A DNA stretch of 24,411 nucleotides from Thraustochytrium sp. TN22 (lineage: Eukaryota > Sar > Bigyra > Thraustochytrida > Thraustochytriidae). The DNA lies in assembly GCA_013306675.1 (NCBI GenBank), contig JABLUY010000378.1, positions 1 to 24,411 on the forward strand. The letters are read 5' to 3'. A model generated the notes under the pieces. That model was given only the letters and a program-made list of their open reading frames with translations, made no database searches and was not told where the DNA came from. This document shows positions 4,239 through 19,575 of the stretch, in pieces. The first letter of the stretch is position 1, and each line of letters opens with the position of its first letter. Made by a program: the position numbers and the translations under genes.

Positions 4239-7200
4239 TCAGGCGCTCTCGGTCTCGGGGTTGATGCGGTCCTCGACCTCCTTGGTGAGGACCTGCTTGG
4301 CCTCGTCGCTCGAGCCGCCCAGGTTCATGGCCGCGCCCGCGGCGCCGAAGGTGTTGCTGGCGCCCGTGGAGAGCACCGAGGCGCCCGCGATGATGCCGGA
4401 CTGGACGAGGGCGGCGAAGCCGCCGTTGGGGTGGAAGGCGGACATGCTGACGAGGAGGAAGACGATGATGAAGCAGAGCACGAGCGCGAGCGCCATGAGG
4501 TAGAGCGCGATCTGGAAGGAGGAGAGCCCGAGGCCCTGGCCCACGACGCTGCCGGCGAGCTGCGACACGAGCCAGTCCCAGGCGCCCAGAAACTCCTCGC
4601 GCGACACCGCGCCGTCGTTGCCGGCCACGTCGCAGTAAGCGAACATCATGTCGCGCTTCGACTGCAGCACGTTGATGCCGAGCGTGTCGAAGAGCGTGTC
4701 GAACTCGGCGCGAGTCAGGACGCCGTCGCCCACCGCGACGCTCGCGTCCGCCTCCTCGTGCTCGTGCTCTTGCTTGGGCGGGACGTCCTCGTCCTCGCCC
4801 CCCTCCGCAATCGCCGCCGCCTCCTCCTCCTCCTCCTCCTCCTTGGCCGCTTGCTCGGTGACCTCGGTGTCGATAAAGGTGAAGAGGTCGGTCGGGTCGA
4901 AGGTGTAGTCGACGTCGGTGGTGATGGAGAGCAGGCCCGTGGCGACGCTCTGGCCGCTCTTGAGTTTAAGTGCGCACGCCTCGATGACGCGCTCGGCGAC
5001 CTTTTGGTTGAAGATGTCCGTCATGGTGGAGCGCAGCTTGTCGCGGACCTTGAAGAGACGGTGGTACTGGTACGAGAGGATGGAGAGGAAGCAGCCGAGC
5101 GCGGAGCCCATGGGCAGAAGCTTCTCGGGCTGCAAAAAGGCGGCCAGGAGAATCCAGGCGCACTGCATGCTGAGGAAGCTCACGAGGACGAAGATGGAGA
5201 CAGAAAAGACGAGACGGTAGCCGAGGCGGACGGCGCGCTCGATGGCCCAGTGCAGGTGCACGGCGTCGAGGTACTCGAGCAGGAGGAGCGTGTAGCAGAC
5301 GGCAAGAATGGAGACGGCCAGCTTGCCGGCGACGCGCAGCAGCCAGATATTGTCAAAGGAGCTGAGGCGCGTAAGCGGCGGCACGCCAAGGTCCTGGTCG
5401 TGCATGCTGTTGGCGGGGCCGAGCGTGGCCGAGTGCGTCATTTGCGCGGCCAGCGCAAGCTCGAGCAGCATACAGGGCGCCACCGCAAAGGCGAGCTGAT
5501 GCACAGCCGTCTCCATGTACTGCCGCAGGTACCAGCGCTTGGTGAAATGCGGTCGGTGGTCGAGGCGGTCCACGTGGTCCAGGCCACGAATCGTCTCGAT
5601 GCGCGTGCTCTTGAGTCGGAGGCCAGCCAGGGCGAGCAGGTCGGGCGAGAGCGTCGGGACTGGGACGCCCGGGCGCACGACCCGCGCAAAGGCGGAAAAG
5701 GCCTCGTCGAAGCCGGGCACCTCCTTGTGGTCTTTGGTGATGAGCGAGTCGAAAGAGACAAAGTCGCGCAGGTTGCCGGTGGTGATACAAAAGGCGCGCA
5801 CGAAGGCCTGGAGCAGCGCGGCGTCCCCAGCGTCTTTCAGGTCGGCGAGCTGCGCCGCGTGCGCGCGGCGGTAGGCCGCATAGTCGCGCACGGGCGCGGC
5901 GCGGCGCGGACGGTGCGACACTGGGGCGCCGTCGAGGCGCCAGAGGCAGCCGTGCACGCGCATGGCCATGGTGCTCCGCGTGCGCACGCCAAATTCGGTC
6001 AGCAGGCGCCGCTTGACGGTGATCATGTTTTCCTCCATGTCGATGTTCTCCTTGAAGCAGTAGCGCTCGTACTCCTTCATGAAGACCGAGAGCGTGAGCG
6101 CGTTCTCCTGCCGGCGGTTCAAGGACGACGCCGACGCTGGCGGTGGAGCCACGGCCGCCGCCTTGGTCCGGCGCACGCTGCGCATGGGGTGCGCGAGCAT
6201 GCGCGTGATGCGGTTCGCGCCGGCGAGCGCCGACCCGCTGCCCGCGCCCGCAACCTCCGCCTTGACGTCGTAGGTGTGACTCACGAAGGATGAGAGCGAG
6301 TCGGCCCAGGCGCGGCGCAGCGGATCGACCAGGAGCACGTCGAAGAGCTCGACCGGGCGCTCCAGCGCGCTCAGGTGCACGCCCTCGGGCGAGCCGCGCT
6401 GCTTGGCTGGCGCCAGCGGCTGCACAAAGAGCTGGCTTCCAGCGGCGCTCACGCTGACGTAGGCCTCGTCGCCGTCTGCTAGGCGCGACTCCAGCACCTT
6501 GCGGCGCGCGCTGTCGTTGTGGAAACGCTCGCGCAGCTGGTGGCCCATAATGGCGGAGAAGCGCGAGAGGAAGACCGCCGACATGATGACGCCAATGATG
6601 AGACTGAGCACGAGCGAGAGCGTGCCGCGCGAGTCCGAGGAAAAGGTCGTCTGCACGAGCCTGCCCGTGGCCGGGTCCTTGATGAAGCGGAGAAACTCGG
6701 GCCGGTCGAAGGAACCCGCGTCGTCCACCACGACCAGCGTGCCCCAGAGAGAGGTGCGGAAGCGAGGCAGCAGCACGCGCAGCAGCTCCTTGCCCATGGC
6801 CTCGACCGTGGCGCTCGTGTTGGACAGCTGCCACGGCGACGAGGGCGCGAAATCGATCCTGAAGCGCTGCACGTCCGGCTCCAGCAGGCCGAACGAGAGG
6901 CTGTCGAGCAAGGCCGGCGGCAGCGACATGTACACGGGCTCGTTCGTGTACACGAAGCGCACCACCGAGGTGCTGCTGTGCTCGTTGAGAAAGGGCGACA
7001 TGTCCGCGTAAAAGACCGCGAAGATCGACGTGGGCACCCCGGCGTCCTGCGCCACCGGCCCGTTCCCGTACGGGTCGCGCACCGCCTTGAATATGGCGCC
7101 CGCGTCTGACTTGAGCATGCGCAGGTCGGGGCCAGTGTCCTCCTCGGAGGCGTCCTCGTCGTCGTCCTCCGCTTCGGCAGCCAGCGCCGCCGCCTCGGCG

Positions 7201-8414
7201 CGCGCGGCCTCCACGTACGGCGCCGCGCCCGCCTCGGTCCACAGCGCCACTTGCACCATGCCGTCGTCCGTCATGATGGTGACCGAGTCGGTCTCGAGGG
7301 CGGAGAAATCGGTCTCGCTGCCGGAGGAGATATTCAAGGCGTCGTCCAGCGCCAAGGTGGCCTCGCGCGTGCACCAGGGCACGACCGAGTAGTCGAGCTC
7401 GGAGCGAATAATATCGTACAGGTCTGGCGTCGACACCCAGTTGACGCCATAGGGAATGAAGGTGGGCGTGGTCTGCCAGCTGCACGCGTCCAAGACCGGG
7501 CAGCCGGAACCGCAGCACTTGCCGATGGACTCGAGGCCGGCCGTGAAGTCGTCCGCTGTGACCTTGCGGTTGTTGTCCTTGTCGAAGGCCGTCAAGATGC
7601 GCTGCAGGTAGCGGCCCGAAGTGCAGTCGGCCAGGACCTCGTCGAGCGGCTTGTGCTCAACCTGCGGCGCCGAGAGCGTCACACGGTCGTCGTAGGTGGT
7701 GGCGCGGTACTTGACGTCGAGCAGGTCTGGTGCGCCCGTCGTCTGGTTCGCGTGGTACACGAGCCGCACGTTGGCGCTGGCCGCCGAGAGCCAGGCGTTG
7801 GCGAGGCGAGAGTCGACCGCCACGATGGGCTCCTTGCCGCTCGTGATCTTGGTCTTGGTGAGCACCGTCGTCTCGCGTACCTCCACGCGCACGCTCTCGC
7901 CCTTGACGGTGAGTTGGTCCAGCTGCAGCCCGGGCTCTAGCGTCAGCGTTGCCATGGACGACGCCTCGTCCTGCGCCACCTGCGTGACGCGCAGGTGCAG
8001 GCTGTTTTCCGCCGGCACGTAGACGTCCACACGGCACACCGGTGAGCAGTACCGCGATTGGTACGCCTGGCAGTCCAGCGGGCTCGATATGGTCACGTAC
8101 TCCACGAGGCTCGTCCCTGACCGGTACACCAAGCTTGTGCTGACCTTGGCCAGGTTGCGCTTCACCCGCAAGGAGCCCTGCGTGCAGCCGCCGCTGCATG
8201 GCTTCACGTAGACGCTGCAGCCGCCCACGTTGAGGTCCAGCGTCGTCCTCGCATCGAAGTCCAGCGCCGTTGTCAGGAAAAAGGCCAGCGCTACGAGGCG
8301 GTACAGCCCGTACAGCACGAGCGGGTTCGCCACGAAGGCCACCAGCCGTACCGCGCGCTGTCGGGACTTGCTCGCGTCCAGGTTGCGCGCCGCGCGCCCC
8401 AGCAGAGCGGCCAT
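4239..8414 (-). CDS. Large multi-pass membrane protein with EF-hands
   Basis: Encodes 1391 residues without an intron. I do not recognise the family. Hydrophobic, likely membrane-spanning segments lie near residues 25-50, 597-620, 970-992, 1022-1048, 1066-1096 and 1299-1326. Between the first two is a Cys-rich region (several Cys at 66-127 and 300-348) that looks extracytoplasmic, with N-glycosylation-type NQT, NIS and NTS sites. It contains a good EF-hand loop at residues 278-289 (Asp, Asp, Asn and a final Asp at positions 1, 3, 5 and 12). A weaker EF-hand-like pair lies at about 1226-1275, after a run of Glu residues (1192-1198). The middle part (about 620-965) is soluble and basic. The layout suggests a calcium-responsive channel, transporter or sensor, but no pore or transport motif can be named. 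The start Met is followed by a basic stretch and then the first membrane segment, so it is plausible. Confidence 0.85.
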   Translation of the reverse strand: MAALLGRAARNLDASKSRQRAVRLVAFVANPLVLYGLYRLVALAFFLTTALDFDARTTLDLNVGGCSVYVKPCSGGCTQGSLRVKRNLAKVSTSLVYRSGTSLVEYVTISSPLDCQAYQSRYCSPVCRVDVYVPAENSLHLRVTQVAQDEASSMATLTLEPGLQLDQLTVKGESVRVEVRETTVLTKTKITSGKEPIVAVDSRLANAWLSAASANVRLVYHANQTTGAPDLLDVKYRATTYDDRVTLSAPQVEHKPLDEVLADCTSGRYLQRILTAFDKDNNRKVTADDFTAGLESIGKCCGSGCPVLDACSWQTTPTFIPYGVNWVSTPDLYDIIRSELDYSVVPWCTREATLALDDALNISSGSETDFSALETDSVTIMTDDGMVQVALWTEAGAAPYVEAARAEAAALAAEAEDDDEDASEEDTGPDLRMLKSDAGAIFKAVRDPYGNGPVAQDAGVPTSIFAVFYADMSPFLNEHSSTSVVRFVYTNEPVYMSLPPALLDSLSFGLLEPDVQRFRIDFAPSSPWQLSNTSATVEAMGKELLRVLLPRFRTSLWGTLVVVDDAGSFDRPEFLRFIKDPATGRLVQTTFSSDSRGTLSLVLSLIIGVIMSAVFLSRFSAIMGHQLRERFHNDSARRKVLESRLADGDEAYVSVSAAGSQLFVQPLAPAKQRGSPEGVHLSALERPVELFDVLLVDPLRRAWADSLSSFVSHTYDVKAEVAGAGSGSALAGANRITRMLAHPMRSVRRTKAAAVAPPPASASSLNRRQENALTLSVFMKEYERYCFKENIDMEENMITVKRRLLTEFGVRTRSTMAMRVHGCLWRLDGAPVSHRPRRAAPVRDYAAYRRAHAAQLADLKDAGDAALLQAFVRAFCITTGNLRDFVSFDSLITKDHKEVPGFDEAFSAFARVVRPGVPVPTLSPDLLALAGLRLKSTRIETIRGLDHVDRLDHRPHFTKRWYLRQYMETAVHQLAFAVAPCMLLELALAAQMTHSATLGPANSMHDQDLGVPPLTRLSSFDNIWLLRVAGKLAVSILAVCYTLLLLEYLDAVHLHWAIERAVRLGYRLVFSVSIFVLVSFLSMQCAWILLAAFLQPEKLLPMGSALGCFLSILSYQYHRLFKVRDKLRSTMTDIFNQKVAERVIEACALKLKSGQSVATGLLSITTDVDYTFDPTDLFTFIDTEVTEQAAKEEEEEEEAAAIAEGGEDEDVPPKQEHEHEEADASVAVGDGVLTRAEFDTLFDTLGINVLQSKRDMMFAYCDVAGNDGAVSREEFLGAWDWLVSQLAGSVVGQGLGLSSFQIALYLMALALVLCFIIVFLLVSMSAFHPNGGFAALVQSGIIAGASVLSTGASNTFGAAGAAMNLGGSSDEAKQVLTKEVEDRINPETESA

Positions 8415-9237: not shown

Positions 9238-9677
9238 GCTGTCTGACAGCGCCGAGGACAACGTGTACGAGGACGTGAGCACCAGCCGAGCAGGACATTG
9301 AAACAGACCGCCGCCCCAACCGCGCCCGCACAGCCTGAGCGCAGCTTTGGATGCAGGGGATGGTGGCTTTTAAAAAAGGCGGACGTCAGTTTCGGCAGCA
9401 GCCCATGCAGAAGAGGCGAGCGACGCCAACGCGACGGCGAATACAGCCTGCAGCTGCCGCCGCTGATGATGATCTGAGAAAAAAGAAGAAAACCAGGAAA
9501 AGGAAATGGGCCGGTGGGAGTACAGAGGTGCCTTCTTCGGGACCAAGACCTACAAGCAAGCTGAGGAGAATCACCAAGTCCTGCAGGCCTACCGGTGATC
9601 CGCCAAGCTGCAATGACGAAATGAATGTGTTCAAGCAGTCAGTCGGTCGGTCGGGCTCCGTCCGTGCTTGGTCGTGA
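9231..9677 (+). pseudogene. Diverged tandem copy of the small basic gene
   Basis: DNA from about 9231 to 9633 is a diverged copy of 8782-9187. Both begin with AGGCTG(A/T)C.GAC.GCG/CCGAGGAC, share the block CCGCCGCCCCAACCGCGCCCG and the CAGCAGCC.ATGC.GAAGA block, and end in ATGTGTTCAAG. In this copy the start of the frame reaches a TGA near 9299, and the reading frame differs before and after about 9340. An open frame from 9351 to 9677 keeps the Lys/Arg-rich part, including SGPRPTSKLRRITKS. There is no copy of the first exon. I infer a 5'-truncated, frame-broken duplicate; a shortened functional gene starting at 9351 cannot be excluded. Confidence 0.6.
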
Positions 9678-10737
9678 ACGTGAGTTTGGCTTTGCACGTG
9701 TTCTGTTTTTTCTAAAAAGGCTGTCTGTGGCCCAGAATCGCTTCCTCGTCAACTTCGCGCGGCGCAACGCCGGCTGCGCCGTTGGTCCAACGGTGTCTTA
9801 GACCATTTACTCTTTTTCCCGAATCTCCCGTGAGTCGGCGCGACCGCTCTCTCTCTCGCCCGCCGGCGCGGCCGCTCGCGCGCCTCTCACCGCCCGCTCC
9901 GCGTCGTCACCGGCCGCGCCGCGCCTGCGCCGCCGCGAGCCAGCCACTGGCAGGCGGGGTCGCCGCTCCGCTGTCGTCCGCCCGCGGCCTCCGCGCGCCT
10001 TCAAGTTCAAGTGACGTTAAGTTCCAGCTGGAGCCGGCGACCCCGGTGACCGACGGCCGACGGTTCCACGCGTCACCGGTCCGACAGGAGAGCGATGGAC
10101 CGGCGGGGCAGGGCGGGCGCACCTGGGCGAGGCCCCGCGCAAGCGCGTATCCGTGTGGCCGGCACTGTCCGGGCCCTTGCGCGCGTGTTGCCGCACTGTT
10201 GCGCAAGTGGGGGGGCCGGCTGAATCGAAGGCACGGGCTGCGCAGGGCCGGGTGGCCACGCGGCGCGCACGGGGGGGGTGGACTGGCGTCACTGGCCCGC
10301 CGGCGAGGCTATGACAACAGGTTGGCGAGATCAGGACCTGACTCACGAGTCGCGTGTCGGGCTCTCCGAGTCCGCCGGTCCGAGCCAGCCGCCCGATGCC
10401 TGGCGGCCGGTCGCGGCGTGGCGGCCGCGGCGGCGGCGTTCCGCGGCGCGGCCTGGCGGCGGCGGCGGGACCGGGGCTGGGGCCGGCGATCGTCTTCATC
10501 GATCGATTCGTGTTGCCAGTTCAAGACTTTACCCCACCACGACATCGAAGTTGATGATCAAACCGACGCGGCCGCATGCGCCGCGCGCCGCCAGAGGATG
10601 CGGCTGCCCGTTTCCAGGTCGCCTGTGCCAGAAAAAGCTGCGGCTGCCTGGCAGCGGCCTCCAACCCCCGTGTGTTTTCTGGAGCTAGGCCAGGCCTGCA
10701 GCCGCACGAAGAGCGTCGTCTTCACAGTGATGACAGT

Positions 10738-10820
10738 CAGCCAGCCAGCCCGACGAACAGCCTGGCCGCCGCCCTGGCCGCCTGCGACGCGGATGTCTGC
10801 TGAGGCAGGCTGGCTGGCTG
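10738..10820. repeat. 13-bp perfect inverted repeat, 57-nt spacer
   Basis: CAGCCAGCCAGCC at 10738-10750 is exactly complementary to GGCTGGCTGGCTG at 10808-10820. The spacer is itself rich in GGCCGCC motifs, so a long hairpin is possible. The arms are simple CAGC-type repeats, so chance origin from slippage is also possible. Confidence 0.75.
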
Positions 10821-11273
10821 CGCCACTGGCCAGCCGCTGGCCAGCGCTGGCGGCGGGCAGACCTGGACAGACAGCCTGAGGCGGCTGGCGAGCGAAGCGC
10901 GAACCGAGCTCCAAACCGAGCCTGGAAGTTCAAGTCGCCCTGGCTGGTGTGAGGCGCTGTGATCATGAGCGGCCACGGCCGGCCCGGGTCGTTCTTCGGC
11001 GGGTCACGCGCTCTGACCCAATGACTGCCAGGTGCTGGGAGGCGGACGAGCAGAATATGCCGCAAACAGCTGCGTGCCACGCACGCGCGACGTCACGACT
11101 CACGAGGTGCTCGCGGTCGGCTCGGCTCGCCACGCCTCGAAGCGCCGTCGCGACCGAGCGCCGGCCAGGCCCAACTCGAAGGCGCGGCCTGCACTGCAGT
11201 GGATCCGGGCAAGGAGGCCTTGACCGCCTCGCCGAGCTTGCGGCTACGTGCAGTCGGGCGCGCTCCAGCGAGC

Positions 11274-11303
11274 GAGCTAGCTAGCTCGCGAGCTAGCTAG
11301 CTC
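11274..11303. repeat. Perfect 30-bp AGCTAG palindrome
   Basis: GAGCTAGCTAGCTC directly joined through CG to its reverse complement gives a gapless 30-bp palindrome. It shares the AGCTAGCT core with 3374-3395 and 15917-15932. It could form a cruciform or bind a dimeric protein. Confidence 0.85.
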
Positions 11304-11966
11304 AGGCAGCGCCGTCGACGACACGTGCGATTATGGCGGCGGGACCGTCGAGCGTGCCACCACAGCATCCGCCGCAAACTTTTGCGACGCCGCGCCGCAG
11401 CCAGCCCCCAGCGGACGCCGCCGCGGCAGCGCGGCGGCGCGGCGCGGGAAGCGGGGAAGCGCGCGGCGGAGGCCGCGCAGCGGCGGCGCCGCGGCGGCCG
11501 CCTCCGCGCCGCGCCACCGCGCGCGTACTTGCGAACTGGCGCAGCTCACGCCTGGCGCCGGCCTCCCAGGCGGGCCAGCGGCGGGCGGCCTGCGAGCCCA
11601 GGCAGCGGGAAGCCTGACATTATCGTCATCGCTGCGACCCGTCCGCGGCAGGCGCCGCCGCCGGCGCAGAGCCACGGCCGGCCTGCCGCGCGGCCGCCAG
11701 CAGCGGCGAGGCCGCGGCGAGCCTGAGCGAGGCCGGGTCCGAGTCCTCCGACTCGACGTCTCCCGAGTCCCCTTCGCTGCCGCTGATAGGACAGGACAAG
11801 GCTAACATAACAACAAGGAAGGCTCGCACGGCACGAGCTCAACTTGCGATGAGACGAGCCTCCAGAAGACGCCCGCCTGCGGCGCCTGGCCAGCGAGCAT
11901 GGCGAGCGGGGCGTCGAGCGGCACGCGTGCCGCCTGGCTGGCTGGCTGGCACCGGTGATGGATCGA

Positions 11967-12588: not shown

Positions 12589-15078
12589 ATGAACTGGAAT
12601 GAGGTCTCCGCGGACCAGCAGCAGCAGCCGCAGCCGCAGCAGGAGGAGCTGCTGCTGCCGCATCCGCATCCGCATCCGCAGGATCATCAGCACCAGCACA
12701 AGCAACAACATCAAATGTACCAGCACCAGCACCCGGGTAGCTTCGACAAGATGCTGCTGGGCCTGCTGAGTCTGGATGAGTGCGACGCGACAGTCGCGGA
12801 GGTCTTCGGCCACCCAAACGGCGACGAGCACATGAGCGCTGTGGACGTGGACGCAATGGTCCACCTGGACCACGTGGAGCCCCCCGAGAGCATCGGTCAG
12901 GCTGAGCAGTGGGAGACGGACGCGGACGCCGGCGAGGTGCTCTCGCACGAGACCACGTACGAGGCGCTCTCATACGAGGCGCCTGCAAGCATCTTTGCCG
13001 ACGACGGCTACAACCAGGTGCAAGCGAACAAGCACATTACTGGCGAGTGGTGGGGCGCCTACGTGGACGAGGCCTCGTGGCCGAGCAGGTTCCAGCGCAA
13101 CAATAAGCAGGCGGGCCAGAAGAACCTGCGGTGCTTTCCGACGTGCGCGTCGCCGCACCAGGCGTGCAAGTTCTGCGGGACGGAGGTGAGCTTCCAGGCA
13201 GTCTTCAAGCCAGCGGAGCACCAGGCGCCGGGCGCGCAGCTGCCGCGCTTCATCGCGTACGGGCGCTTTGACACGGCCGCCGGCGCCTTCAAGGAGTTCG
13301 ACGTAGGCAGCCTCATCTCGCTGGAGGCGATCCGGGCACAGGAGCGCAAGCGCGGCCGGCCCCTGGCGCCCTGGTACCCGAGCTCGCAGGAGGTGCAGAA
13401 GGCGCCCGACGGCCTGACCTACAACATCGACTTCAAGTTCAACAGTCGCGACCACCAGGGTTGGCACTATGACTGGCAGAGCACCAAGTACTCGTGCGAC
13501 ACCAAGCACGTCTTCAATGTGTACATTTTCACCTTCGAGTCCGAGGACACGCTCCACTGCGTGGGCAAGTTTGCCAGCCCTTCGTTCGAGATCTACTGCC
13601 GCCGCAGGCAACGCTTCTCCAAGGTCGACCCGTCCAAGGTCGCGCTCTCGTCGGCCTCGCTCATCTACCACATCGCCGTCCTCCTGCAGCGCGCGGAGCT
13701 CAGCGCGGAAGAGGACAGCTTGCTACCAGGGTCGCCCGGTAGCAGCGGCAGCGGCGGCGGCGGCGATGAACGCACGCGCCGGCTGCAGACCATCCTGCGC
13801 AGGCTCGCGCAGCACATCGTCTCGGAGAGCGCCTTTACGGAGCGCATCACCGCCGTCTGCCGCGACATCGCGTACCGTCGCGACAACGGCGAGAGCGTGG
13901 ACGTCGGCTTTCGGAACTTCATCGATGCCATCAAGGACTACCTTCATTCGTTTCTGACGCAGCAAGGCTCCACCCTCAGCGAGCTCGAGGAGCTCTATCA
14001 AGCCGCCACAGACCTCGTCAAGACCAAGGAGGAGGACAAGACCAAGGAGGAGGACGAGTCGGACGCCGAGGACCAGTCCGCCGCCAGCTCCAGCGTGAGC
14101 TCGAGCTCCGGCGCCGCGCCGCCCGACCCGGCCGTCGGCACAAAGCGCAAGTTCCAAAACCCGGCACACAAGAAGGTCTCCGAGCTCGGCACGGTTGGGC
14201 TCATCGACCTCAAGGACCCCGAGTATCAGCTCCGCCAGGTCTTTTTGACGCTCATCGCGTCCTGCTCCAAGGCGGCGCAGAGGACGAGTCGCGAGCCCAA
14301 CCGCGTCGACCCCAACGTGCTCGTGTCGCTGCAGGGCGACGCGAAGCGCTCTCGCACCGACGTCTCCGCCGCCTCCATGGGCTCGCCGCGCGGCTCGCCG
14401 CTGCCCAAGCCCGCGCGCCTGCCGCAGGCCGACCTCGATCGCTACGTGGCCTATGACCCGTCCATGTCATTTGTCGGCTTCAACCCGAACGGCGAGCCCG
14501 ACTTCGATGGCGTCTACTCGCCGCTGCCCGGTACGGCGCAGCGCCTTTGGTACCTGCGCACCGGCCCGATCATGAAGTGGCCCCAGACGCGTGCGCGCCT
14601 CATCAGCCAGATGGAGAGCACCTTTGCGATTAGCCTCTCCAACACGCACCTCACCTTTCAGCTCAAGCGAAAGCTGCTTTCGGACGGCGTGCTCGACTTC
14701 GTCCTGGACGGCGTTGAGCATCCCTTCGATCTCATGGACCCTCTCATGAATGCTGGCGATAAGTTCCTCGCGCTCACCAAGGCCGCATGGACCTGTGGCA
14801 ATGCCATGGTCATTGCACACCGCTACACTGAGAACATGCGCCTCTTGCGCTTCTACTGGAAGGACCGCGCCCATGAGACGCTTCGCGGTCGAGCCATCCT
14901 CGAGACGCGCGTCACCCCCTCGAGCCCATGGTCCATTCAGGCCATGATCAACCACGACAAGCACATTCTCTCGCACGATCCCGCCACATTTGCCTCGCTC
15001 GACTACAACTACACACACTCGGGCAGGGCCCATGTCGCGCCGCCTTCTCCGGCGCTCGTGAACCTTGGTTCATTCTGA
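12589..15078 (+). CDS. Unrecognised 829-residue protein, probably nuclear
   Basis: Single-exon frame whose start lies in AGAAGATGAACTGG. I do not recognise a family. Residues 9-50 are Gln/His/Pro-rich low complexity encoded by CAG and CATCCG repeats. Residues 151-345 form a compact, non-repetitive region containing C182-x3-C186-x6-C193-x2-C196, a possible zinc site, followed by a beta-rich stretch with many aromatic residues that ends in a basic CRRRQR (337-342). A Ser/Gly linker (380-393), an acidic/Lys heptad-like KTKEED duplication (478-489) and a basic KRKFQNPAHKK (519-529), possibly bipartite nuclear signal, follow. Residues 620-805 form a second well-ordered region rich in Trp, Phe and Leu. 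Two conserved-looking globular parts joined by disordered linkers would suit a transcription regulator, but that is inference. No transmembrane segment or signal peptide is seen. Confidence 0.85.
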   Translation: MNWNEVSADQQQQPQPQQEELLLPHPHPHPQDHQHQHKQQHQMYQHQHPGSFDKMLLGLLSLDECDATVAEVFGHPNGDEHMSAVDVDAMVHLDHVEPPESIGQAEQWETDADAGEVLSHETTYEALSYEAPASIFADDGYNQVQANKHITGEWWGAYVDEASWPSRFQRNNKQAGQKNLRCFPTCASPHQACKFCGTEVSFQAVFKPAEHQAPGAQLPRFIAYGRFDTAAGAFKEFDVGSLISLEAIRAQERKRGRPLAPWYPSSQEVQKAPDGLTYNIDFKFNSRDHQGWHYDWQSTKYSCDTKHVFNVYIFTFESEDTLHCVGKFASPSFEIYCRRRQRFSKVDPSKVALSSASLIYHIAVLLQRAELSAEEDSLLPGSPGSSGSGGGGDERTRRLQTILRRLAQHIVSESAFTERITAVCRDIAYRRDNGESVDVGFRNFIDAIKDYLHSFLTQQGSTLSELEELYQAATDLVKTKEEDKTKEEDESDAEDQSAASSSVSSSSGAAPPDPAVGTKRKFQNPAHKKVSELGTVGLIDLKDPEYQLRQVFLTLIASCSKAAQRTSREPNRVDPNVLVSLQGDAKRSRTDVSAASMGSPRGSPLPKPARLPQADLDRYVAYDPSMSFVGFNPNGEPDFDGVYSPLPGTAQRLWYLRTGPIMKWPQTRARLISQMESTFAISLSNTHLTFQLKRKLLSDGVLDFVLDGVEHPFDLMDPLMNAGDKFLALTKAAWTCGNAMVIAHRYTENMRLLRFYWKDRAHETLRGRAILETRVTPSSPWSIQAMINHDKHILSHDPATFASLDYNYTHSGRAHVAPPSPALVNLGSF

Positions 15079-15821: not shown

Positions 15822-16362
15822 ATGGACAAGTACGGCACGCACGGCGGCATCACCGTAAGTCTTGGCGGCAGGCGGCAACGAGCGTGGGAAGGAGGCGCGG
15901 GGCGAGGCGAAGAGCTAGCTGGCTAGCCAGCTGTCATTCATGGCCGCGGACGGCACGGCCGCGCCCAACCACCGTCGATCGGGCACGAACTAACGCGCAG
16001 CGTGAATGAGACAGTGCGACGGCTGCGCGGCGCGGCCGATCCAGGGCTTTCGGTACAAGTGCAAGCACTGCCCGAACCATGACCTGTGCGAGACGTGCTA
16101 CGCCAAGTTTCAGGAGGGCGAGCACGCGCAGGACGCCAGCATGGCGCGCGTGAACAAGGTGAGCTCCAAGGTGGAGGACCATGAGTTCTATCAGCATGCC
16201 GCGACCGACACCTCCTTTGTTGGCCTGTCCGCCAAGAAGGAGGCGCAGGCGCCCAAGGCGGCTGTCAAGAAGGTCAAGCCGAATGAGCCCTGCTCGTGCG
16301 GCTCCAACAAAAAGTTTAAGAAGTGCTGCGGCAAGCCCGGTGCTACTGCTGCTGCTCAGTAG
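15822..16362 (+). CDS. ZZ zinc finger plus SEC-C motif protein (two exons)
   Basis: Exon 1 is 15822-15854 (11 codons, MDKYGTHGGIT) and exon 2 is 16015-16362; the spliced product is about 126 residues. The split reconstructs a complete ZZ domain at residues 8-42: the HGGIT of exon 1 joins CDGCAARPIQGFRYKCKHC and DLCETCY, matching the family pattern of CxxC pairs that bind two zinc ions. After a linker, residues near 103-118 contain CSCGSNKKFKKCCG, a SEC-C motif, which binds one zinc and is known from SecA tails and many small eukaryotic proteins. ZZ domains usually mediate protein contacts, including histone tails and N-degrons. The combination suggests a small zinc-binding adaptor. An ATG at 16006 would give a single-exon version, but that would lack the N-terminal ZZ residues. 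The gene faces the NELF-C/D gene tail-to-tail. Confidence 0.85.
15855..16014 (+). other. Spliceosomal intron of the ZZ/SEC-C gene
   Basis: 160 nt with donor GTAAGT, a branch-like ACTAAC at 15989-15994 and acceptor GAGACAG ending at 16014, phase 0. The nearer CAG ending at 16000 lies only about 6 nt after the branch-like site, and using it would give Arg-Glu-stop. The acceptor at 16014 instead restores the ZZ motif exactly. Confidence 0.82.
15917..15932. repeat. 16-bp AGCTGGCTAGCCAGCT palindrome inside the intron
   Basis: A perfect 16-bp palindrome within the intron, preceded by another AGCTAGCT. It belongs to the group of AGCT/CTAG palindromes seen at 3374, 9224 and 11274, and could form a hairpin in the intron RNA. 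Confidence 0.7.
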
Positions 16363-16570: not shown

Positions 16571-18879
16571 TCACTTGGGTTTGAACGGCTTGAGGGAGAT
16601 CACCTCGCGCTTGACGGGTCTCGGCCCGTTGTTATTGTTGTTCGCCGCGGCAGCGCCGGCAGCAGGAGCAGCAGACGTGCCGGCAGAAGCAGTATTTGCA
16701 GAGGCGGCGGCGGCGGCGGCGGCGGCTGCAGCGGATACCACGGTAGCGACGCGAGTGCCGGCTCCGGTGGGAGGCAGAGGGCGGGGCTGGCTCGCGGGTG
16801 GACGTGTGATGGGCGTGTCGAACCTCGTGACGGAGGAGGAGACCGCGGAGGATGGCATGGTCGCCGAGAGTGCGACGGTGCTCTGGCAGCGCTGGCGAAG
16901 GTCGTTGACGACGCGAAAGTCATCGCGCACTTGGGAGGCGCGCACGGCGCGTGTGCAAGCGTCGAGGTTGACAAGCTGCAGGACGGCGCGCGCGAACTCA
17001 GGCGAGATGTTGCTGCCAACGGTCTTGGCAAGCTGCACGATAAAATGCCGCACGAGGACGGCGTCCAGCTGGCCCAGGGACGCCTGGTTGCGCACAAACT
17101 CGAGGACCTGGAAGACGAAGCCGGACTGCACGAGGAGGATGAACTCGTCGATGATGAGCGTCTTGATCTCCAAGAGCCTGGACTGGTAAACGTGAGTCGG
17201 GTTGATGGGCAGCACCTGGCAGAGCGCGAAGAATGCCATGATGCGCTGCAATGGGTGGGCGCGCGCCGCACCGCGGATGAGATGCATCATGACGCGCATG
17301 CCCGTGAAAAAGTACCTCTCCCTGTGAAAGGCGGGCGAGACCATGCAGGCGCGCGCGAAGCGAATGACGCCGCTAGATACGATCGGGTACTCCTCCACGA
17401 AGGATGCTAGTGTTTCCATGCTGGTCGAGGAGACCTGGAGCTCCTCCATGGACATGGTCTTGGGGTCCTTGCAGATGGTGATGGCATCGACGAGCGCGAC
17501 GTAGACCTCGCGCTCCTTGCCTTGGCCCGGCACGCGCGCAGCGGCGACGGCCGCCAAGTACGCGCCGTTCTGAATGGAGGTTGCGTCCATTGTGCGAAAC
17601 GGGTCGAAGAGCTGAGTGGTGAGCAGCAAAATGACCTCCAGCCGGCGCAGCGGCCACAGCGGCACGGCGGCCGCCTCCTCATTGCGCTCCGGATCGTAGA
17701 TGCTGCGCAGGCGCGCCAGGGCATCCGGCTTGAACATGCGATCCTTGAGACAGGTGCGCAGCAATGTGGCGAGCGTGGGAAAGCCACCGCAGCCTGGGCC
17801 GGCACTCAAGCCGCCAGCGTTGCGCCGATTGATGGGCTTGCACAGCTGATTGGCCTCCTGCCGGCCCTGCTCGCCCTGCTTGCGCGGCATGTTGGCCAGG
17901 CCCTGGCGAAGCCGGCGCACCCTACTACGCAGAAGCGTCGACGACAGCCGCGCGGGCCGCGCGGCGCGTGCCACGGACGCCTCCGCCGACACGGCCTCCG
18001 GCACGTCGTCGCTGCCCTCGAGCGCCTCCAAGGCCTCCATGGCGAACAGGTACGTGTACTGCGAGTGCCAGGCCAGCGTGCGGAAGCGCTCCTCCAGCTC
18101 GCTCAGCTCCGCAGGCCCCTTGCCGCGGCTGTCCTCGCACTGCAAGATCTCGCGCAAAAGGTCTGTGAAGGTGCGGCGAAAGACGGCAAAGTAGCTCGCC
18201 GGGTTGATGGCCTCCGCCACCTCCGCATGGTGGCCCTCCTTGCACATGGCGCGCACCGCAAAGTCCAGCAGCGGCACGGTCTTGTGCTTGTCGGCTAGCC
18301 CGATCAGCGTCTTGCGCCAGTACTCACTGCGGAGCATGCCGCGCAGCCACGCCGGGGGCTCGCTCTGCTCCATGATCTGGTCCAGCTTGTCGCGCGCAAA
18401 GTGCTGCTCCACTAGCTTGGCCAGATAATCGGCCACGGCCGGATGCGGCTCGGACGGCGAGGCAGGGCCCGCCGCCGCTGCCGGAGGCGCTGCCGCCTCT
18501 ACGCCATTCCCGCCGGCCGCCTGCTTCTTTGGCTCCAGCATGTCGAGCCACCTCGTGGCCAGCCCAATGTACTCGGCGTACCCGTCGTAACCGGACGAGA
18601 GCATCTCGACAAGCAGGTCTACGTCGCGCCGTTCGCGCTTCTTGCGTCGCTTCGGGTCTTCGCCCTCTCTGCGCAGCCACTGCGCCATCCACGACTTGAC
18701 ACGCGGGTCCAGGATCGCATCGCGTCCTGTCAGCCGCGCCTGCAGCTCCCGCCGCTCCTCCGACATCTCTTCCATCGCGTCCTCCACGTCGTCCTCCGTC
18801 GCCGCCGCCTTGCGCTTCTTGCTCGAAGGAGACGGGAGCGTCTTGGTGGCAGCGGCCGTCGTTGTTGTGGTATCCGAGA

Positions 18880-18916
<37 letters not shown>

Positions 18917-19267
18917 GGCGTCACTGCTGCTGTTGTTGCTGGTGACGGCGGTGGTGGTGGTCGTGGTGGTGTTGCCGCCGGCGGCGGCTGTGGTGGCGGC
19001 GGCAGTGGCGGCGGCGGCCGCGGCAGCAGCGGCCGCTAGCTCCTTGGCCGTCTCCTCCGTTGGCCGCTGCCACCGCACGGCGCCCGTCGCCTTGTGCTGG
19101 TACAGCGGCATGCCCTCCACCGTCTCCAGCTGCACCCAGCCTTCCGCCAGGGCCGGGGCGGCGGGCGTGGCGGGCGTGGCGAGCGTGGCGGCCGCCTCTG
19201 CGCCGCCGCCCTCCGCCGCCGCCGCGTCCGCCGCCGCCGCGGCCGGCGTCGCCGCATCCTCCGCCAT
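16571..19267 (-). CDS. NELFCD: WW-domain / NELF-C/D (TH1) fusion protein
   Basis: Encodes 898 residues. Residues 43-69 form a WW domain with Trp44, Trp66 and Pro69 and a GMPLYQHKATG core; WW domains bind proline-rich ligands such as RNA polymerase II tails. An Ala/Thr run, an Asn run (118-129) and a Lys-Lys-Arg-Lys patch (150-153) follow. From about 180 to 770 the protein matches the TH1 family, the NELF-C/D subunit of the negative elongation factor that holds RNA polymerase II paused. Recognised blocks include RDAILDPRV (182-190), PPAWLRGMLRSEYWR (304-318), YTYLFAMEAL (404-413), YPIVSSGVIRF (627-637) and SGFVFQVLEFVRNQ (715-728). The tail (800-898) is Pro/Ala/Asn-rich and ends in basic PVKREVISLKPFKPK. 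The family normally has about 580-590 residues, so the extra length is the WW head, the linkers and the tail. The start Met is the first in frame. Confidence 0.85.
18883..18916. repeat. TTG/AAC trinucleotide run (poly-Asn)
   Basis: A run of about 12 GTT units on the plus strand, which is AAC on the coding strand, encodes the Asn run in the NELF-C/D head region. It is a likely length-variable microsatellite. Confidence 0.85.
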
Positions 19268-19575
19268 CGTTGGCGTGCCGCTTTGATTTGATAACTATTT
19301 GGATGCTCGCTCGCTCTGGCTCGAGCGACAGGCGCCGTCGGCCGCAAAAGCGAGTGCGCTGAGCTGAAGGCCGGCAGGCAGAAATCGGGTAAGAAGAAGC
19401 GGCGGCGGACGCGGAGGCGCAGGCAAAAGGCCAAGGCGCCCCCCTGTGCATGCGTTCTGCGTCGGCACGGCCATCGCCGTTGCCTCGTTCAAGGCATGTG
19501 CCCGTTGACGCTCGATGGAAAAACAAGGTTTTAGCTCAGATCAGATCATCATCGTCGCCGTCGTGGAAACTACAA
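19268..19575. other. Spacer between kinesin and NELF-C/D genes
   Basis: About 310 nt between two minus-strand genes. It must contain the 3' end of the kinesin transcript and the promoter and leader of the NELF-C/D gene. No gene and no clear promoter motif is visible. Confidence 0.45.

Follow-up and report, generated by a model that had tools for sequence, protein, structure and literature searches.

The NELF-C/D gene and its architecture

The window analysed here comprises 24,411 nucleotides (positions 1 to 24,411 of contig JABLUY010000378.1, assembly GCA_013306675.1) of Thraustochytrium sp. TN22. On its minus strand it carries a gene for the pausing factor subunit NELF-C/D, whose open reading frame (ORF) starts with an ATG at 19267 and runs to 16571 with zero internal stops; an in-frame stop lies nine codons 5' of this ATG. 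The same coordinates had been given in an original prediction, made from the letters alone, that described a clear WW domain fused to a full TH1/NELF-C/D body and proposed that the pausing factor might dock to the polymerase or a partner through it. The features of the locus are:

19268..19575, no strand: gap of 308 bp from the kinesin stop to the NELF-C/D start, presumably the promoter
16571..19267, minus strand: NELF-C/D (TH1) gene, a single ORF of 898 amino acids, stop codon included in the coordinates (ORF call, TH1 / NELF-C/D matches)
19148..19267, minus strand: N-terminal lead, residues 1-40, Ala/Pro-rich (sequence)
19061..19147, minus strand: apparently degenerate WW domain, residues 41-69, with W44, L55 at the groove position, Y56, W66 and P69 (profile model, PDB, tblastn, shuffles, third-position GC, predicted structure)
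18815..19048, minus strand: low-complexity linker, residues 74-151, with poly-Ala, poly-Thr and poly-Asn followed by a Ser/Lys/Arg stretch (sequence)
18017..18814, minus strand: first half of the TH1 body, residues 152-417 (PF04858 positions 17-242)
16880..17665, minus strand: second half of the TH1 body (PF04858 positions 316-576)
16574..16855, minus strand: C-terminal tail, residues 805-898, Pro-rich (RPPASQPRPLPP), then poly-Ala/Asn and a basic end (sequence)

The TH1 body was borne out. PF04858 matches the protein significantly in two stretches (E-value 1.8e-46; score 159.5 bits, cut-off 24) that cover most of the profile, i.e. about positions 17-242 and 316-576 out of 579. Comparison of the profile with the DNA placed these stretches, there spanning profile positions 18-242 and 316-576, at 18017-18811 and 16880-17665, while NELF-C/D chains of the PDB align to both halves of the ORF (best E-value 3e-20). 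In a profile search of the entire genome (37.9 Mb, 453 contigs) the only TH1 place was found at this ORF. The thraustochytrid protein resembles animal NELF-C/D (NELFCD) in its TH1 body, along most of the profile, and differs by an N-terminal extension of about 150 residues with a WW-like module and by its low-complexity C-terminal tail. The Pfam match begins at query residue 152, which corresponds to profile position 17, and the human chain 8w8e_W comprises 24 residues ahead of the point that is aligned, weakly (-1.1 bits), to query residue 158.

Judged from the sequence, WW-like segment and TH1 body very probably belong to one fused gene. Both lie in the same uninterrupted reading frame, and the upstream neighbour, a kinesin gene on the same strand, ends 308 bp ahead of the NELF-C/D ATG. 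The GC content at third codon positions (GC3) is coding-like in the WW stretch, at 0.95 the highest value of the eight segments measured, though barely above that of the N-terminal lead (0.94). Residues 1-35 show GC contents of 0.86/0.80/0.94 by codon position, no 120-base window in the two flanking gaps exceeds 0.85 at any codon position, and none of the 70 windows of the region 9300-11500 reaches a GC3 of 0.95. As the genes are predicted, a separate WW-carrying gene has no room between the neighbours. The claim of a single reading frame was thus sustained.

Detection of the WW-related segment

WW domains are defined by two tryptophans 20-22 residues apart and a C-terminal proline. The spacing of W44, W66 and P69 fits this hallmark, and the fold-core residues W44, G52, Y56, W66 and P69 are retained. 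The WW profile of Pfam (PF00397) gave no match in the whole protein at E ≤ 1 and none in the isolated segment at E ≤ 10, so that the Pfam cut-off is not reached; nor is the segment among the 150 PF00397 places listed genome-wide (150 of 221 candidates scored). The sole Pfam match of the isolated segment was WW_USP8 (E-value 0.097-0.16), under the cut-off of that family. However, a hidden Markov model built from 30 WW domains of the same genome ranked the NELF-C/D ORF first of the 393 ORFs in the window, with an E-value of 2.9e-4 compared to 0.33 for the runner-up. The segment scored 22.5 bits, while the maximum for 20,000 shuffles was 11.9 bits among the 18,711 rows listed, the real segment included. 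In addition, 15 of the 18 PDB sequences matching at E ≤ 0.1 are WW proteins (the other three are PQQ beta-propeller proteins), among them the solved WW structures of WBP4 (E-value 7.5e-5) and DGCR8 (2.2e-4), and tblastn against the own genome gave 11 matches other than the segment itself (E ≤ 10), 8 of which overlap PF00397 places. Modelled from the single sequence, AlphaFold2 predicted strands at residues 44-50, 53-58 and 64-66 forming a three-stranded sheet; the predicted local distance difference test (pLDDT) was 76-87 in the strand block, with a mean of 66.8 over the modelled piece. Comparison of this predicted fold with solved structures listed no WW. By sequence comparison the segment is WW-related above a chance match. 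Consequently, the WW assignment stood with its Trp44, Trp66 and Pro69, while the word 'clear' was too strong: the segment seems to be a degenerate, WW-derived module.

The ligand face

Proline ligands of WW domains are held in an XP groove made of Tyr/Phe plus Trp. The groove position, 11 residues before the second Trp, is occupied by Tyr/Phe in 29 of the 30 own-genome WW domains, whereas the NELF-C/D segment has Leu55 here and consequently no aromatic XP groove; the thirtieth domain has Val at this position and a loop shorter by one residue. We take this column to be that of Pin1 Tyr23 and YAP Tyr28. Two further columns, which presumably are groove residues of Pin1 and YAP as well, are also off-consensus: His58 stands in a column with Asn in 27/30 and His in 2/30 of the own-genome domains, Val64 in one with Thr/Ser in 25/30 and Val in 2/30. 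Thus the segment has the Trp-Trp-Pro spacing in common with the canonical WW domains (PF00397) of its genome, while Leu55, His58 and Val64 set it apart on the ligand face. Its loop 1 (LETVEG) is acidic; WW domains binding phospho-Ser-Pro have a basic one. Taken together, the proline-binding groove seems to be degenerate.

The best single-domain match among solved structures was the WW domain of DGCR8. DGCR8/Pasha (PDB 4e5r, 3le4) and the segment share, without gaps, the pattern GW-x7-GxP[LV]YxH[KR]...VxWxRP, and in both a hydrophobic residue replaces the groove aromatic. We assume that 4e5r, titled MGC78846, is frog DGCR8, in keeping with its near identity to 3le4. Passages of PMC3388087 describe the usual peptide surface of the DGCR8 WW as occluded and proline-peptide binding as unlikely, and attribute to the WW motif a role in dimerisation and heme binding. 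For NELF-C/D the Pfam scan (E ≤ 1) reported no double-stranded RNA-binding domain (dsRBD), and as the first Cys of the protein is residue 342, nothing points to a heme ligand of the DGCR8 kind close to the WW. On these two counts it differs from DGCR8/Pasha, which has dsRBDs and a Pro-Cys heme ligand by the WW.

Other NELF subunits and RNA polymerase II in the genome

Two further NELF subunits were found in the same genome:

C453, L044 889..4494, minus strand: NELF-B homologue (COBRA1), 1201-amino-acid frame with its first Met at residue 167
C104, L045:911-2089, minus strand: NELF-A homologue, ORF of 392 amino acids (NELF-A_N, E-value 2.2e-8)

NELF-B was detected with an E-value of 3.1e-20, and its residues 215-470 align to residues 17-280 of human NELF-B (E-value 8.1e-29). 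Like NELF-C/D, this other core subunit has an added reader-type module, in its case a bromodomain (residues 552-635, PF00439, E-value 2.9e-17) instead of a WW-like head. The isolated bromodomain is best matched over its whole length by TAF1 (E-value 3.9e-21), with polybromo-1 first by summed domains, and it keeps HPMDLSTI as well as Asn625, presumably the acetyl-lysine Asn. The genome contains 30 bromodomain places. The domain appears to be inserted into the body of NELF-B, as part of some 320 residues that have no counterpart in the human protein. This placement depends on the C-terminal part, whose identity as NELF-B rests on a weak, colinear alignment of residues 789-832 to human 296-338 (3.2 bits) and on the two COBRA1 stretches that Pfam reports for the whole protein; taken alone, the C-terminal part matched neither COBRA1 in Pfam nor, at E ≤ 10, any NELF-B chain of the PDB. 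If it were not NELF-B, the bromodomain would be a C-terminal fusion and not an insertion. The C-terminal tail of the protein is Ser-Pro-rich.

The NELF-A_N domain was also recovered in the genome-wide search (E-value 1e-7). No further Pfam domain was seen in the 392-amino-acid ORF at E ≤ 1, and thus not the animal HDAg part, although this is a weak test; the same holds for HEXIM, which was not found in the genome by a search run without a positive control. PPxY, LPxY and PPLP motifs are absent from the NELF-A, NELF-B and NELF-C/D proteins, so a WW contact inside the complex would not be of the classical kind. The C-terminal domain (CTD) of the RNA polymerase II (Pol II) subunit RPB1 comprises 19 YSPxSP units. 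Ten of the 17 units listed for its C-terminal repeats (C442, L034:1492-3108, minus strand) are nine-residue YSPSSPAAA or YSPSSPAQA, and the remaining ones are mostly heptads such as YSPASPA.

Possible function of the added modules

According to passages of PMC11482795, NELF-B and NELF-C/D are ancient and widely distributed, while the HDAg part of NELF-A and NELF-E are later additions. We lean towards the view that strain TN22 has this ancient NELF core, that its two core subunits gained accessory modules, and that the WW module provides a structural or intra-complex contact. The TH1 body would most likely do its conserved job and join NELF-A and NELF-B in the NELF core on paused Pol II, with the WW-derived head tethered ahead of it by the low-complexity linker of about 80 residues. 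This head would most likely provide a protein-protein contact within the complex, such as a docking or dimerisation surface, and not as a phospho-CTD reader, because its groove is degenerate. Human NELF-C crosslinks through N-terminal lysines to NELF-B and NELF-E (passages of PMC4940160), and an N-terminal head on NELF-C/D would hence sit near the NELF-B/NELF-E lobes. Alternatively, the module might bind weakly to one of the tails, either the Ser-Pro-rich one of NELF-B or the Pro-rich one of its own protein. The intra-complex role, taken by itself, is a tentative proposal that has slightly less than an even chance of being right.

If the segment were no WW at all, the W-22-W-3-P pattern would have arisen by chance in a GC-rich, Ala-rich lead. 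The silence of PF00397 and of the structure comparison would fit such a coincidence. However, no shuffle came near the real score, the segment ranked at the top of all window ORFs, the matches in the PDB and in the own genome fall mostly on WW proteins and WW places, and the predicted three-stranded sheet lies at the expected residues. We thus regard a chance pattern as highly improbable. The segment might otherwise be a WW passenger without function, left to decay after domain shuffling in a WW-rich genome. WW domains are abundant here: the PF00397 places number at least 150, with three below the Pfam cut-off, and at least 92 frames bear them (counted as distinct pairs of contig and frame length, a lower bound on open frames), one of them on a myosin. 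A new WW fusion is consequently less of a surprise here than in a genome poor in WW domains, and the altered groove residues as well as the low-complexity sequence on both sides also suit a passenger. Yet the fold core is intact and GC3 is highest, if only just, in this very stretch, so we consider a passenger unlikely.

We think it equally doubtful that the segment works as a WW reader and thereby attaches NELF to the CTD of Pol II or to a different Pro-rich partner in elongation. The relationship to WW domains is supported by the own-genome model, the PDB matches and the predicted sheet, Ser-Pro targets are present in the RPB1 CTD, and Trp66 of the groove is retained. In contrast, the groove aromatic is replaced by Leu55, Val64 and His58 depart from the consensus on the ligand face, and loop 1 is acidic. 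Furthermore, the human NELF-AC core with its fold like that of a CTD-interacting domain showed no significant binding of CTD peptides, according to passages of PMC4940160 that are silent on an added WW. With Leu55, the acidic loop and the occluded DGCR8 domain as best single-domain match, the docking to polymerase through the WW that had been proposed finds little favour.

These modules touch the question of how a core without HDAg part and NELF-E gets aimed at Pol II or chromatin. As targeting candidate the bromodomain of NELF-B would be the better one, since it might let the complex bind acetylated nucleosomes directly. Built-in modules of the NELF core, chiefly this bromodomain with its acetyl-lysine Asn, would offer a direct and testable route to such nucleosomes. 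Of less note is the WW on NELF-C/D, given its degenerate groove and the many WW fusions in the genome. One step further, both core subunits might have gained reader-type modules that tie NELF to acetylated promoter nucleosomes and a further partner, a self-targeting NELF that we regard as rather improbable. Passages of PMC11482795 describe a 'proto-pause' that is set by the +1 nucleosome in Schizosaccharomyces pombe, which has no NELF, and treat NELF in animals as a checkpoint of its own. Since the proto-pause was described in a species without NELF, it gives no support of its own to NELF at the +1 nucleosome, and this weighs against self-targeting. If self-targeting were nevertheless true, one might speculate that the pausing machinery couples the NELF checkpoint with the nucleosome barrier, which are separate in the species studied so far, and does so in a lineage where the animal HDAg part of NELF-A and HEXIM were unseen in weak tests. 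The terms 'WW domain', 'bromodomain' and 'stramenopile' are absent from the main text of PMC11482795, and neither NELF fusion was found reported in the open-access literature searched.

Neighbouring genes and further observations

The downstream neighbour lies on the opposite strand and converges on NELF-C/D. It ends at 16362 with a terminal-exon-like ORF of 118 amino acids (16006-16362), which carries a ZZ zinc finger and a SEC-C motif. Elsewhere in the window, an ORF of 829 amino acids (12589-15078) shows no Pfam family over the cut-off, and one of 1391 amino acids (4239-8414, minus strand) contains hydrophobic, membrane-like stretches together with EF-hand matches just under the cut-off. 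The WW-bearing myosin (C175, L048:769-3093, plus strand) has GYF_2 and WW domains N-terminal to its motor. As fits a thraustochytrid, the same genome also encodes a polyunsaturated fatty acid synthase of the PfaA type, in a frame of 3044 amino acids.
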